Positions 29,392-34,214 of a stretch of DNA of 64,000 nt are shown one piece after another. Both the position numbers and the translations under genes were made by a program. Below the pieces are notes generated by a model. That model made no database searches and had not been told where the DNA came from. It worked only from the letters and a program-made list of their open reading frames with translations. This DNA is from Planctomycetota bacterium. GTDB lineage: Bacteria; Planctomycetota; MHYJ01; JACQXL01. The stretch covers positions 124,001 to 188,000 of the forward strand of contig JACRIK010000003.1 in NCBI GenBank assembly GCA_016235865.1. The letters run 5' to 3'. Within the stretch, counting starts at the first letter, position 1, and each line of letters opens with the position of its first letter.

Positions 29392-29420
29392 TTGACCTTG
29401 TTAGACGTATTTGATATACG
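29392..29420 (+). promoter_or_regulatory. Promoter of the selenoprotein/thioredoxin-like cluster
   Basis: TTGACC (29392-29397), 17-base spacer, TATACG (29415-29420). The predicted 5' UTR of about 65 bases contains a hairpin CCCGAA-TGCT-TTCGGG (29461-29476) ending just before the Shine-Dalgarno AAGGAGG. Confidence 0.6.
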
Positions 29421-29493
29421 CTATGGCATAAAACCAATCGGAACAAACCGGGATAATGGCCCCGAATGCTTTCGGGACCATAAGGAGGCTTTT

Positions 29494-30537
29494 ATGAAAG
29501 CATACCGCTATTTAATCCTGTTAGCCATCGCGTTTCTGGGGCTGTCTATCAATCCAGTTAACTATACAACCGGCGAAGACAATGTCACTATTGACAGCAT
29601 CCAATTGGGGACCCTGGTCATAAACGAGGATATTTCCAAGGAGGACATGCAGGACCACGTGGTCGGCGTTAAATACATGGGCAAGTGGTGACCGCAATGC
29701 GTGACCAGCGTGCCCCACTCAGTTGAGTGGTATAAAAAGTACGCGCCCCAGGGGTTAATCCTGATTGGGTTCCACAGTTCCAAGCAAGAGACCCCGGAAG
29801 AGGTGGTGGCTTATTGCAAGGCCAACAAGATACCCTATCCGGTTTACGAAAAAGGAAATATTGCCGGACACCCGGTCCAGGGCTATCCGCACTTTGTGCT
29901 CTTTGACCATACCGGTAAGATGATTTATCAGGGGCACCCGATGGAGGCCGATGCCAAACTGGCCGCGGCCATGAAGGCCGCGCCGGACTGGCTGGTCGGC
30001 GAAGGCCCGTATAAGAAACTAAAAGCTATTGCGGAAAAGGCGAAATCCCACAAGGATTTGGGCCAGGCCCTCAAAACCCTCAAGGAAAAGCACCTGAACT
30101 CCGCTGATGCGGATGAAAAGGCCGAGGCGGAAAAATTAGCGGAACGGCTGACCCGTTACGGCAACAAACTGCTGGCGAAGGCCGAGGCCAAGAAAGGCAC
30201 CGAGCCGCTGAATTCTTATAACCTCTACCAGGAAGTATCCAAGGTATTCAAGGGCGATGAAATCGGCGATAATGCCGACAAAGCCCTTAAGGACCTGAAG
30301 GACGACAAGGCCTTTCAGGATAACCTCAAGGCGGACAAGGAACTGGCCGACATGATGCCGGATATCGAGAAACTAAAGGCCTGCAACAAGTGCGGGACGT
30401 TCAACAAGGAATGCGATGCCTGCAAGAAAAAGAACGCCTCGCTGGAAATGCTTCTGCCCAAAGCCAAGGGCATCGTAAAAAAGTATCCGGACTCGCCGGC
30501 CGCGGCCCGGGTCAAGGAACTTCTTCCCGTGGAATAG
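29494..30537 (+). CDS. Thioredoxin-like selenoprotein (in-frame UGA, W-U-P-Q-C)
   Basis: 347 codons read through a UGA at 29689-29691 (residue 66). ATG 29494 has a Shine-Dalgarno AAGGAGG; the same frame is open from there to TAA at 30535 except for that one codon. Before it: signal peptide (residues about 1-25). The UGA falls in VVGVKYMGKW-U-PQCVTSVP, exactly where thioredoxin/TlpA proteins have W-C-x-x-C, so selenocysteine is the expected residue. The thioredoxin fold continues after it (GLILIGFHSS; YPHFVLFDHTGKMIYQGHP). The C-terminal half is helical (TPR-like, FKGDEIGDNADKALKDLKDDKAFQDNL) and carries C-x2-C-x6-C-x2-C near the end. Two tandem paralogues follow. Probably a periplasmic redox protein; substrate unknown. 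No selA/B/C/D gene is in the window. A standard gene caller would report a short stub and a headless protein starting at 29701. Confidence 0.88.
29715..29730 (+). promoter_or_regulatory. Bacterial SECIS hairpin
   Basis: CCACTC-AGTT-GAGTGG: a perfect 6-bp stem with a 4-base loop whose second base is G. The loop starts 29 bases after the UGA, within the 16-37 base range known for bacterial SECIS elements recognised by SelB. GCGT (29699-29702) and ACGC (29741-29744) can extend the base of the structure. The hairpin lies in the coding sequence, as in formate dehydrogenase genes. Confidence 0.75.
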
Positions 30538-30613: not shown

Positions 30614-31654
30614 ATGTTTAAGAAATACCTGATTATACTTCCCGTTCTTTTGCTAATCGGCCTGGCCGGTTCGCCGCCCATTAAAGGCCAGGAAGATGTC
30701 ACCGTCCAGAATATAAATTTCGGCGAATTGATGCTGGGCAGCGAGGTCGCCAAGGAGGACCTGCAGGACTGCGTGGTCGGTGTTGATTTCGACGGCATGA
30801 CCTGCGCCACCTGCCCCTGCGGCGGGGCCATCAACACGTTTATCGAATGGCACCAGAAATACAGCCCCCAGGGATTTATCTTGCTCTCCTTTTATGTCAA
30901 AGACGAAGCCAAGGAGAAATTCGCCGCCTTTTGCAAGTCAAAGAAAGTGCCTTTTCCGGTCTATGCCGGTGGAAGCATTTCCGGAATGGAAATCACTGAC
31001 TTTCCAACCTTTGTGATCTTCGACCATAACGGCAAGGTGATTTACAACGGACATCCCAAGGAGTCCGGCGGCAAATTTACCGCGGCAATGAAATCCATGC
31101 CGGACCCGCTGCTCGGGGCCGACCCTTACAAGAAATTATCCGCCCTGGCGGACAAGGTAAAAAAACGGAAGGAACTAGGTCAGATACTGGCCGCGTTGAA
31201 GGCCAAGCACCTGAATTCCGAGGATGCGGACGAGAAAGCCGAGGCGGAAAGATTAACGGAACGGCTGACCCGCTACGGGAATAAACTGCTCCGCCAGGCC
31301 GGGGCCAAAAAGGCCAAGGAACCTCTGGAGTGCCTCAACCGCTACCAGCAGGCAGCCACGCTCTATAAAGGCGATGCCATCGGCGATACGGCCGAAAAGG
31401 ACATCAAGGAACTTAAAGATGATAAGGTGTTTCAGGACAATCTCAAGGCGGACAAGGAACTGGCTGATATTATCATTGAGATGAAGAAACTGAAGCCCTG
31501 CAACTCCTGCGCCTCGTTCAGCAAGGACTGCCCGGCCTGCTATAAACGGAACGCCTCGATGGAGGTGCTGATACCAAAGGCCAAAGGGCTGGTGAAGAAG
31601 TATCCGGACTCGCCGGCCGCGGTCAAGGTTAAGGAATTGCTTCCGGTGGAATAA
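30614..31654 (+). CDS. Thioredoxin-like protein, Cys paralogue (T-C-A-T-C-P-C)
   Basis: 346 residues, a close paralogue of the upstream selenoprotein over its whole length. Signal peptide about residues 1-25; active-site region GVDFDGMTCATCPCGGA, with Cys 64 and Cys 67 at the Sec and Cys positions of the neighbour and an extra Cys 69. The thioredoxin-like core (GFILLSFYV; FPTFVIFDHNGKVIYNGHP) and the C-terminal helical domain with C-x2-C-x6-C-x2-C are retained. The spacer from the selenoprotein gene (30538-30613) contains a CATTCCGTGCTTGACACGGAATC hairpin. No clear Shine-Dalgarno. Confidence 0.85.
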   Translation: MFKKYLIILPVLLLIGLAGSPPIKGQEDVTVQNINFGELMLGSEVAKEDLQDCVVGVDFDGMTCATCPCGGAINTFIEWHQKYSPQGFILLSFYVKDEAKEKFAAFCKSKKVPFPVYAGGSISGMEITDFPTFVIFDHNGKVIYNGHPKESGGKFTAAMKSMPDPLLGADPYKKLSALADKVKKRKELGQILAALKAKHLNSEDADEKAEAERLTERLTRYGNKLLRQAGAKKAKEPLECLNRYQQAATLYKGDAIGDTAEKDIKELKDDKVFQDNLKADKELADIIIEMKKLKPCNSCASFSKDCPACYKRNASMEVLIPKAKGLVKKYPDSPAAVKVKELLPVE

Positions 31655-31764: not shown

Positions 31765-32832
31765 ATGCCGAAAATAAACATTGGGTTGCTAGTGGCGATT
31801 TGCATGGCCCTATCTTTTATCGCGGTCTGCGGGAAATCAACCTGTCTGCAGAGCGAAAGCGAACTTCTGGAAGCTACTATTGAAAACATCAAATTCGGCG
31901 AGCTCTTGATGGGTGACGCGCTCACCCAGGAAGACCTGCAAGGCCGCGTGGTGGGCGTGAAATTCTGGGGCAAATGGCTCGGGGTCTATCCCGCCACCAC
32001 CATGCCCCGCACGGTCGAGTGGGACAAAAAGTACGGCCCGAATGGATTAGTCCTGATCGGGTTTCATGGCAGCAAGGATCCAGAGACCGCGAAAGAGGTG
32101 ACCGCTTATTGCCGGTCCATCGGCCTGACCTATCCGATATACGAAGGCGGCTGCGTTTCCGGCGTCCAGATCCAGATCTATCCCCATTTTGTGCTCTTTG
32201 ACCATACCGGCCAGATGATTTACAGCGGCCATCCGATGCAAGCCGAGGGCAAACTGGCCGCCGCCATGAAGGCCGCGCCGGACTGGCTGACCGGCCCGGA
32301 ACCTTATAAAAAACTCAAAGCCCTGGCAGATAAAATAAAGGAACGCAAGGAACTCGGCAAAACCCTCGCTGCCCTAAAAACCAAACACCTGAATTCCGCC
32401 GATGCGGAGGAAAAGGCCGAGGCGGAAAAACTGATCGGAAAACTGAGCCGCTATGGCAATCAGCTTTTGCAAAAAGCCGCGGCCAAGAAGGACACCGAAC
32501 CGCTGAACTCCCATAATCTTTACCAGGAAGCCGCCAGGTTATTCAAGGGCGATGACATCGGGGACAAGGCTGACAGCATCCTGACCGAACTTAAAGACGA
32601 CAAGACCTTCCAGGATAATCTCAAGGCGGAAAAGGAACTGGCCGACATGATTCCGGAAATAGATAAACTCAAAGCCTGTAACAAATGCGGAACATTCAAC
32701 CAGAAATGCGCGGACTGTAAGAAAAAGAATCAGTCCCTGGAAACACTCGTTCAGAAGGCCCGGGGCCTGGTGAAAAAATATCCGGACTCGCCGGCCGCGG
32801 TAAAGGTCAAGGAACTTCTGCCAATCGAATAA
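31765..32832 (+). CDS. Thioredoxin-like protein, active site lost
   Basis: 355 residues, third paralogue. N-terminal signal (residues about 1-25, possibly lipoprotein at the Cys in FIAVCGKS). The active-site stretch is GVKFWGKWLGVYPATTMP: W is kept but both redox residues are replaced (L-G-V-Y), so thiol-disulfide chemistry at this site is not possible. Everything else, including YPHFVLFDHTGQMIY and the C-terminal C-x2-C-x6-C-x2-C, is conserved and the reading frame is intact, which argues for a retained binding or structural role. Strong Shine-Dalgarno (AGGAGGA). Confidence 0.85.
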   Translation: MPKINIGLLVAICMALSFIAVCGKSTCLQSESELLEATIENIKFGELLMGDALTQEDLQGRVVGVKFWGKWLGVYPATTMPRTVEWDKKYGPNGLVLIGFHGSKDPETAKEVTAYCRSIGLTYPIYEGGCVSGVQIQIYPHFVLFDHTGQMIYSGHPMQAEGKLAAAMKAAPDWLTGPEPYKKLKALADKIKERKELGKTLAALKTKHLNSADAEEKAEAEKLIGKLSRYGNQLLQKAAAKKDTEPLNSHNLYQEAARLFKGDDIGDKADSILTELKDDKTFQDNLKAEKELADMIPEIDKLKACNKCGTFNQKCADCKKKNQSLETLVQKARGLVKKYPDSPAAVKVKELLPIE

Positions 32833-32939: not shown

Positions 32940-34214
32940 ATGCGAATTGCCTATTTTGATTGTTCCTCAGGCGCCAGCGGGGATATGATTCTGTCCGGAC
33001 TGCTGGACGCCGGATTCCCGTTCAGTAAACTCAAGGCATCGCTCCAGCCGCTGATTAAGCCGTTTAAGGTCAAGCTGTCGCTCCGGCGGGTGGAACGTTG
33101 CGGCCTGTCCGGCCTGAAGATTGATATCACGGGCGCAGATGCGCACCTGTCTCTCAATGAAATATCAGGCGCCATCAGGAAATCCCGATTACCCAAGCAA
33201 GTCAAGACCGATTCGCTAAAGATTCTCAACCGGATAGCCGACGCGGAAACAAAGGTTCATCAACATTTAGACCCAGTTAGAGATTTTGACCCAAAGGGGC
33301 AAAATATCGTTACTGGGTCTTATCCCGGCAGTATTTGCCGGGGCCATAAGTCAAAGCACATCCGGCTCCATGAGTTAGGTTCGGTTGACACACTGATAGA
33401 CATCGTCGGTTCGTCTTTAGGCATTTATCATTTAGGGATTGAACGCATCTATGTCTCTCCCCTTCCGCTTAATGAAGGCAAGGTCAGATGCGCACACGGA
33501 CTGTATCCCTTGCCAGCGCCCGGTACTATGGAACTGCTCAAGAACTTTGAGTTATTCCGAAGCCCGATAAAGAAGGAACTGGTCACGCCCACCGGTGCGG
33601 CTATATTAACCACTCTGGGTCGGCCATCCAATGAAATTCCGCAATTTAATATCTCCAAAATCGGCTACGGCGCCGGAACCCTCGACCTGTTGGACCAGCC
33701 CAATATCCTTAGGGTATTTATCGGCACAGTCCCCACTTTGGCAAAGGGGGGTGCGGGGGGATTTGAAAAAGACACCATCTGCGTCCTGGAAACCAATATT
33801 GACAATGCCACCGGCGAGGTCATCGGATATACCGTGGAAAAACTATTTGCTGCCGGGGCGCTGGATGTATTCACCCTGCCGATTCAGATGAAGAAATCCC
33901 GGCCCGGGGTGTTATTACAGGCACTCTGTCCGATAGACCTTATCTCCAAGATGGAAGGAATTATCTTTACTGAACTACCGACCCTGGGCATCAGGAAATA
34001 CCTGTGCCATCGGGCCAAACTCAAAAGAGAGATACGCTCTGTCAAGACCAAGTACGGCGTTATCCGAGTCAAGGTAAGTTATCTGGGTTCCGAGGCCCAA
34101 CACCTCTCGCCGGAATACGAGGATTGCCGCAAAGCCGCCCGGAAGCATAATGTGCCATTAAGGCAGGTTACTCGCAGTTTGAAGAATGATTTACTGCGAG
34201 TTATCCCGCTTTAG
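32940..34214 (+). CDS. larC: Nickel-pincer cofactor insertion protein LarC
   Basis: 424 residues as one continuous frame (some bacteria make it by frameshifting). Inserts Ni into the pyridinium bisthiocarboxylate cofactor of lactate racemase-type enzymes. Visible: MRIAYFDCSSGASGDMILSGLLDAG, KVHxxH-like region, HELGSVDTLIDIVGS, SPLPLNEGKVRCAHGLYPLPAPGTMELL, ELVTPTGAAIL and LETNIDNATGEVIGYTVEKLF. Two palindromic elements are translated in frame: about 28 residues between KVHQH and HIRLHELGSVD (33270-33342), and TLAKGGAGGFEK (33730-33763). larA, larB and larE are not in the window. Confidence 0.9.
   Translation: MRIAYFDCSSGASGDMILSGLLDAGFPFSKLKASLQPLIKPFKVKLSLRRVERCGLSGLKIDITGADAHLSLNEISGAIRKSRLPKQVKTDSLKILNRIADAETKVHQHLDPVRDFDPKGQNIVTGSYPGSICRGHKSKHIRLHELGSVDTLIDIVGSSLGIYHLGIERIYVSPLPLNEGKVRCAHGLYPLPAPGTMELLKNFELFRSPIKKELVTPTGAAILTTLGRPSNEIPQFNISKIGYGAGTLDLLDQPNILRVFIGTVPTLAKGGAGGFEKDTICVLETNIDNATGEVIGYTVEKLFAAGALDVFTLPIQMKKSRPGVLLQALCPIDLISKMEGIIFTELPTLGIRKYLCHRAKLKREIRSVKTKYGVIRVKVSYLGSEAQHLSPEYEDCRKAARKHNVPLRQVTRSLKNDLLRVIPL
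33270..33342. repeat. Two nested-in-line palindromes inside larC
   Basis: GACCCAGT (33270-33277) pairs with ACTGGGTC (33312-33319), followed by CCCGGCA (33324-33330) pairing with TGCCGGG (33336-33342). They split the KVHQH...IRLHELGSVD region that is contiguous in LarC relatives and are read in frame. Confidence 0.75.

Follow-up and report, generated by a model that had tools for sequence, protein, structure and literature searches.

A predicted selenocysteine-containing ResA/TlpA-like thioredoxin protein with a helical C-terminal domain in Planctomycetota

We analyzed a 64,000-nucleotide stretch of a Planctomycetota contig (here referred to as "the window"), whose host genome is 2.67 Mb in size, 96% complete and divided into 38 contigs. 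The gene at 29494-30537 is almost certainly a selenoprotein gene, in which a UGA codon would be read as selenocysteine (Sec) in a U-P-Q-C motif; its product is a probably exported ResA/TlpA-like thiol-disulfide oxidoreductase carrying a family-specific helical C-terminal domain. A preliminary description, made from the window's letters alone, had proposed an undetected selenoprotein at this place, and the proposal is now supported by the Sec machinery of the host, the conservation of the UGA, the hairpin behind it and the co-occurrence of UGA forms with the machinery. The features of the locus are as follows.

29482..29488, forward strand: Shine-Dalgarno-like AAGGAGG directly 5' of the ATG at 29494 (sequence)
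29494..30537, forward strand: predicted selenoprotein gene, 347 aa, UGA read as Sec66, stop TAG at 30535-30537
29494..29570, forward strand: hydrophobic N-terminal helix, probably a signal peptide or membrane anchor (sequence; model helix 5-18, low pLDDT)
29605..29980, forward strand: ResA/TlpA-like thioredoxin domain, residues ~38-162 (AF2, Foldseek and HMM matches)
29689..29691, forward strand: UGA at codon 66, predicted to encode selenocysteine at the start of U-P-Q-C (homologue alignment)
29715..29730, forward strand: putative SECIS hairpin CCACUC-AGUU-GAGUGG (-8.0 kcal/mol; compensatory change, L018/L052)
29983..30534, forward strand: C-terminal all-helical domain, residues 164-347 (AF2 pLDDT 93.7)
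30382..30423, forward strand: C-x2-C-x6-C-x2-C motif, C297, C300, C307 and C310 (sequence)
30614..31654, forward strand: tandem paralogue in which Cys stands in place of Sec, C-A-T-C-P-C (alignment)
31765..32832, forward strand: tandem paralogue without both active-site residues, K-W-L-G-V-Y-P (alignment)

Conservation of the UGA codon

The TGA at 29689-29691 is the sole internal stop between the ATG at 29494 and the TAG, and it lies, as first described, at the first Cys of a thioredoxin motif. The active site around it reads K-W-U-P-Q-C (U66, C69), with Sec as the first residue of UxxC, and the neighboring paralogue at 30614-31654 indeed has a Cys codon, TGC, at the aligned position. Of the 46 non-overlapping window ORFs with 200 aa or more, 7 end in TGA, which is therefore also an ordinary stop, as had been stated.

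With the read-through protein as query, matches were found in 45 of 59 relatives, many of them with exactly one in-frame TGA, and in 251 of 294 Planctomycetota genomes at a threshold of 1e-12. The named relatives comprise Candidatus Brocadiia and further MAGs of Planctomycetota, several of them recovered from groundwater or mines, as well as Verrucomicrobiales. Among the best 40 Planctomycetota matches, 20 have an in-frame TGA and one an in-frame TAG, and the TGA stands at the identical codon across the aligned subset. When the fetched loci were aligned with an HMM, the first active-site column comprised 103 distinct sites, 74 with TGA and 24 with TGC or TGT, a ratio that is no estimate of frequency because 40 of the loci were fetched mostly for having TGA. 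The expectation that homologues would show Cys at codon 66 was thus borne out, the non-TGA sites being nearly all TGC or TGT. Homologues from across Planctomycetota, and also from Verrucomicrobia, keep the UGA, and many families of Planctomycetota have UGA forms, frequently with several in one genome. On a tree of 93 rows the Sec label needs at least 11 changes, 6 of which are forced by well supported branches, so that Sec and Cys have repeatedly been exchanged. Two peculiarities were seen among the homologues: one match (L075, G085:C1212) has two in-frame TGA codons, and the verrucomicrobial U-G-P-C proteins L059 and L060 carry a C-terminal extension of another kind.

The nearest UGA-containing homologue (L052) shares 63% identity with the window protein, and the amino-acid identity after the UGA is 65%. 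Differences at the three codon positions of this latter stretch number 71, 54 and 167, with a dN of 0.26 and saturated dS; this stretch is therefore both translated and under constraint in that frame, and the comparison indicates strong purifying selection on the downstream half.

Could the locus instead hold two genes, one for a short N-terminal peptide that stops at the UGA and one for a protein starting from GTG 29701 or 29710? A restart is formally possible, with in-frame GTG codons at 29701, 29710, 29803 and 29806, and on account of the first two the earlier remark that a start is missing from the downstream half is not accurate. However, no Shine-Dalgarno sequence was seen upstream of 29701 or 29710, a start at either would divide the thioredoxin fold right at the active site, the Cys homologues form a single uninterrupted frame, and the UGA is accompanied by a hairpin. 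We consider this arrangement very improbable and keep to a single read-through frame.

The hairpin and the selenocysteine machinery

The machinery whose absence the preliminary description had named as fatal to its proposal is present on the window's own contig: selA (541.5 bits), selB (318.7 bits, cut-off 242), a tRNA-Sec(UCA) (64.9 bits, anticodon TCA) and two selD genes. One selD has an in-frame TGA within C-V-G-U-A-G-K, and the known Sec position of SelD is that of UxxK (PMC13188914); an independent selenoprotein gene is thus present in the genome. In this cluster (L138, G000:C3:76500-87000), selA is flanked by the Sec-type selD (CVGUAGK) and a Cys-type selD (GGCAAK), and 4Fe-4S and HgdB/BcrC-like genes, recognized by eye, lie between selB and selD. 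Searches of the genome for AhpC-TSA and formate dehydrogenase genes found no UGA gene beyond the window gene. Across 50 sampled genomes, selA or tRNA-Sec was found in all 29 with the UGA form and in 7 of the 21 others, namely those whose listed matches lack TGA (Fisher p = 1e-7, uncorrected for phylogeny). In the nearest Cys-form relatives (G001, G003, G006 and G008, some of them incomplete genomes), neither gene was found.

A hairpin CCACTC-AGTT-GAGTGG had been reported 29 bases from the UGA, and we find the same: a 6-bp stem of CCACTC (29715-29720) and GAGTGG (29725-29730) closes the loop AGTT (29721-29724), which starts 29 nt after the UGA. The published bSECIS limits are a loop of 3-9 nt, a stem of 4-16 bp, a G at the first or second base of the loop, a distance of 16-37 nt from the UGA and an MFE of at most -7.5 (PMC13188914); the window hairpin lies within all of them (4 nt, 6 bp, G second, 29 nt, -8.0 kcal/mol). 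An Rfam scan of 29400-30000 matched no RNA family.

We then scored the best bSECIS hairpin at 99 sites against synonymous recodings, using a simple helix search. UGA genes averaged -6.7 kcal/mol versus -2.1 kcal/mol for their recodings (Wilcoxon p = 2e-11), while non-UGA genes averaged -2.0 versus -2.0 kcal/mol and Cys genes had no excess over recodings (p = 0.22), p values that overstate independence because the sequences are related. A hairpin of -7.5 kcal/mol or lower was present in 54% of UGA genes versus 7% of the others. In roughly half of the UGA homologues the simple helix search finds none as low as this, and the published bSECIS model itself misses some SECIS elements (PMC13188914).

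Taken alone, the window hairpin is modestly unusual for its peptide (p = 0.08 versus synonymous recoding), the value being no lower because P-H-S-V-E-W constrains the sequence. In the nearest Sec homologue comparison (L018), the C-G of the window's fourth stem pair is replaced by U-A, a compensatory change in which both substitutions are synonymous (CAC/CAT and GAG/GAA). The Cys homologue L019 retains a weaker 6-pair version, and the third paralogue at 31765-32832 has a mismatched hairpin-like remnant, CCGCAC-GGTC-GAGTGG; both may be relics of former SECIS elements.

A UGA followed by C is reportedly a weak terminator, which counts in favor of decoding as some other amino acid, such as Trp or Cys, through a natural suppressor or a variant code. 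We regard this as scarcely credible, since UGA is an ordinary stop for several window genes, the aligned residue is Cys, the counterpart of Sec, selA or tRNA-Sec accompanies the UGA form in every one of the 29 genomes, and the hairpin fits the SECIS model. Least probable of all is a pseudogene or sequencing error, with the UGA as a nonsense mutation, genuine or artefactual, in a gene decaying beside working paralogues: the tandem paralogues do exist, one of them without both active-site Cys, but the same-codon TGA in many independently sequenced genomes rules this out and cannot be sequencing error, and the purifying selection downstream and the sel machinery speak against decay as well.

From the machinery, the conservation and the hairpin we infer that the UGA at 29689 is decoded as Sec. 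SelB with Sec-tRNA-Sec(UCA) would bind the mRNA hairpin at 29715-29730, and selenocysteine would thereby be delivered at the UGA.

Domains, paralogues and possible function

The AlphaFold2 model, built with 13 homologues, has a pLDDT of 89. Its thioredoxin domain has ResA structures (4nmu, 3c73 and 1su9) as best Foldseek matches, and HMM matches are to ResA and to PDB entry 28db, "Redoxin domain protein"; the fold and the position of the active site fit a TlpA/ResA-like thioredoxin (cd02966). As a single protein it scores under the family cut-offs: 25.9 for AhpC-TSA (cut-off 26), 21.9 for Thioredoxin_8 in Pfam (27) and 24.3 for ResA in NCBIfam (170).

The C-terminal domain gave weak, scattered matches only in Pfam, none at a meaningful score in NCBIfam, and no Foldseek match in the PDB with E < 1; its top weak matches include BamD of the BAM complex (E = 3.4-3.6). 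The four Cys of the C-x2-C-x6-C-x2-C motif (C297, C300, C307 and C310) are present as first described. The nearest relatives retain the motif; in distant ones it is reduced or missing, and hence it is not essential to the fold.

Sequence and model suggest that the N-terminus is a signal peptide or membrane anchor, and the protein is probably secreted. Once exported, Sec66 would attack disulfides of client proteins in the cell envelope and Cys69 would resolve the selenenylsulfide, so that the protein may reduce or isomerize disulfides rapidly outside the cytoplasm. A partner or client may dock on the helical domain, whose four Cys may bind metal or form structural disulfides.

The third paralogue has CTC (Leu) at the aligned codon and has lost both active-site Cys, while the rest of the protein is kept; it is possibly a redox-dead partner or chaperone. 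A larC-like gene, recognized by eye, follows the tandem paralogues at 32940-34214 of the window, and one also follows them in a related Brocadiia MAG (L053, from ~2382).

On balance, we favor the view that these proteins form a large, mostly unannotated and often multicopy planctomycete selenoprotein family. Its members would combine a probably exported, Sec-dependent ResA-like reductase with a novel domain of helices that may bind metal or a client, and the family would have switched repeatedly between Sec, Cys and redox-dead versions. Because standard annotation stops at the UGA or starts after it, the family is probably truncated or missing in the gene calls of many planctomycete genomes. 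The spread of UGA forms over many families, often in several copies per genome, suggests that selenium-dependent redox chemistry of the envelope matters there. The paralogues, some with Sec, some with Cys and some redox-dead, and their SECIS hairpins, working or relic-like, offer a natural series for studying the gain and loss of selenocysteine.

Relation to known selenoproteins

The literature that we searched says little on planctomycete selenoproteins. Planctomycetes are not mentioned in PMC5029168, PMC9312934 or PMC12013277, and PMC4807772 reports selenoprotein candidates in two marine planctomycetes. Within the same genome, the Sec-containing SelD is likewise interrupted by UGA and has Sec in an active-site loop, but it is an unrelated enzyme.

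The ResA, TlpA and DsbE (CcmG) oxidoreductases (4nmu, 1su9 and 3gl3) and 28db share the fold and the active-site position with the window protein; however, they have Cys in place of Sec and their chains are without the C-terminal helical domain. The UGC-containing TlpA family selenoprotein (NCBIfam NF041054, WAxxUGC_long) is a ResA-like selenoprotein as well, but its motif is listed as U-G-C (W-A-x-x-U-G-C), whereas that of the window protein is U-x-x-C (G-K-W-U-P-Q-C). The window protein has no match to NF041054 at E <= 0.1, and 3 of the 13 members of alignment A2 match it weakly.

The closest counterpart is the thiol-disulfide isomerase-like selenoprotein of the Sargasso Sea survey (PMC1088965), assigned to cd02966 TlpA-like or pfam13905 with UxxC, and the TlpA-like UxxC type is also catalogued in PMC13188914 and PMC9312934. 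Like the window protein, the Sargasso protein has a TlpA/ResA-type thioredoxin fold with Sec first in UxxC. The published entries are given by the thioredoxin domain only, whereas the window protein adds a helical domain of ~180 residues with the four-Cys motif, and it differs from the pfam13905 entry in that its Thioredoxin_8 score is under the Pfam cut-off. The preliminary description had taken the whole combination for an unfamiliar family. This does not hold for the thioredoxin half, which is already catalogued (PMC13188914, PMC1088965), and it stands for the C-terminal domain, which is without a library counterpart. The window protein is thus a variant of a known selenoprotein type, and what is new, as far as the searched libraries show, is its C-terminal domain and how widely UGA forms are spread among Planctomycetota.
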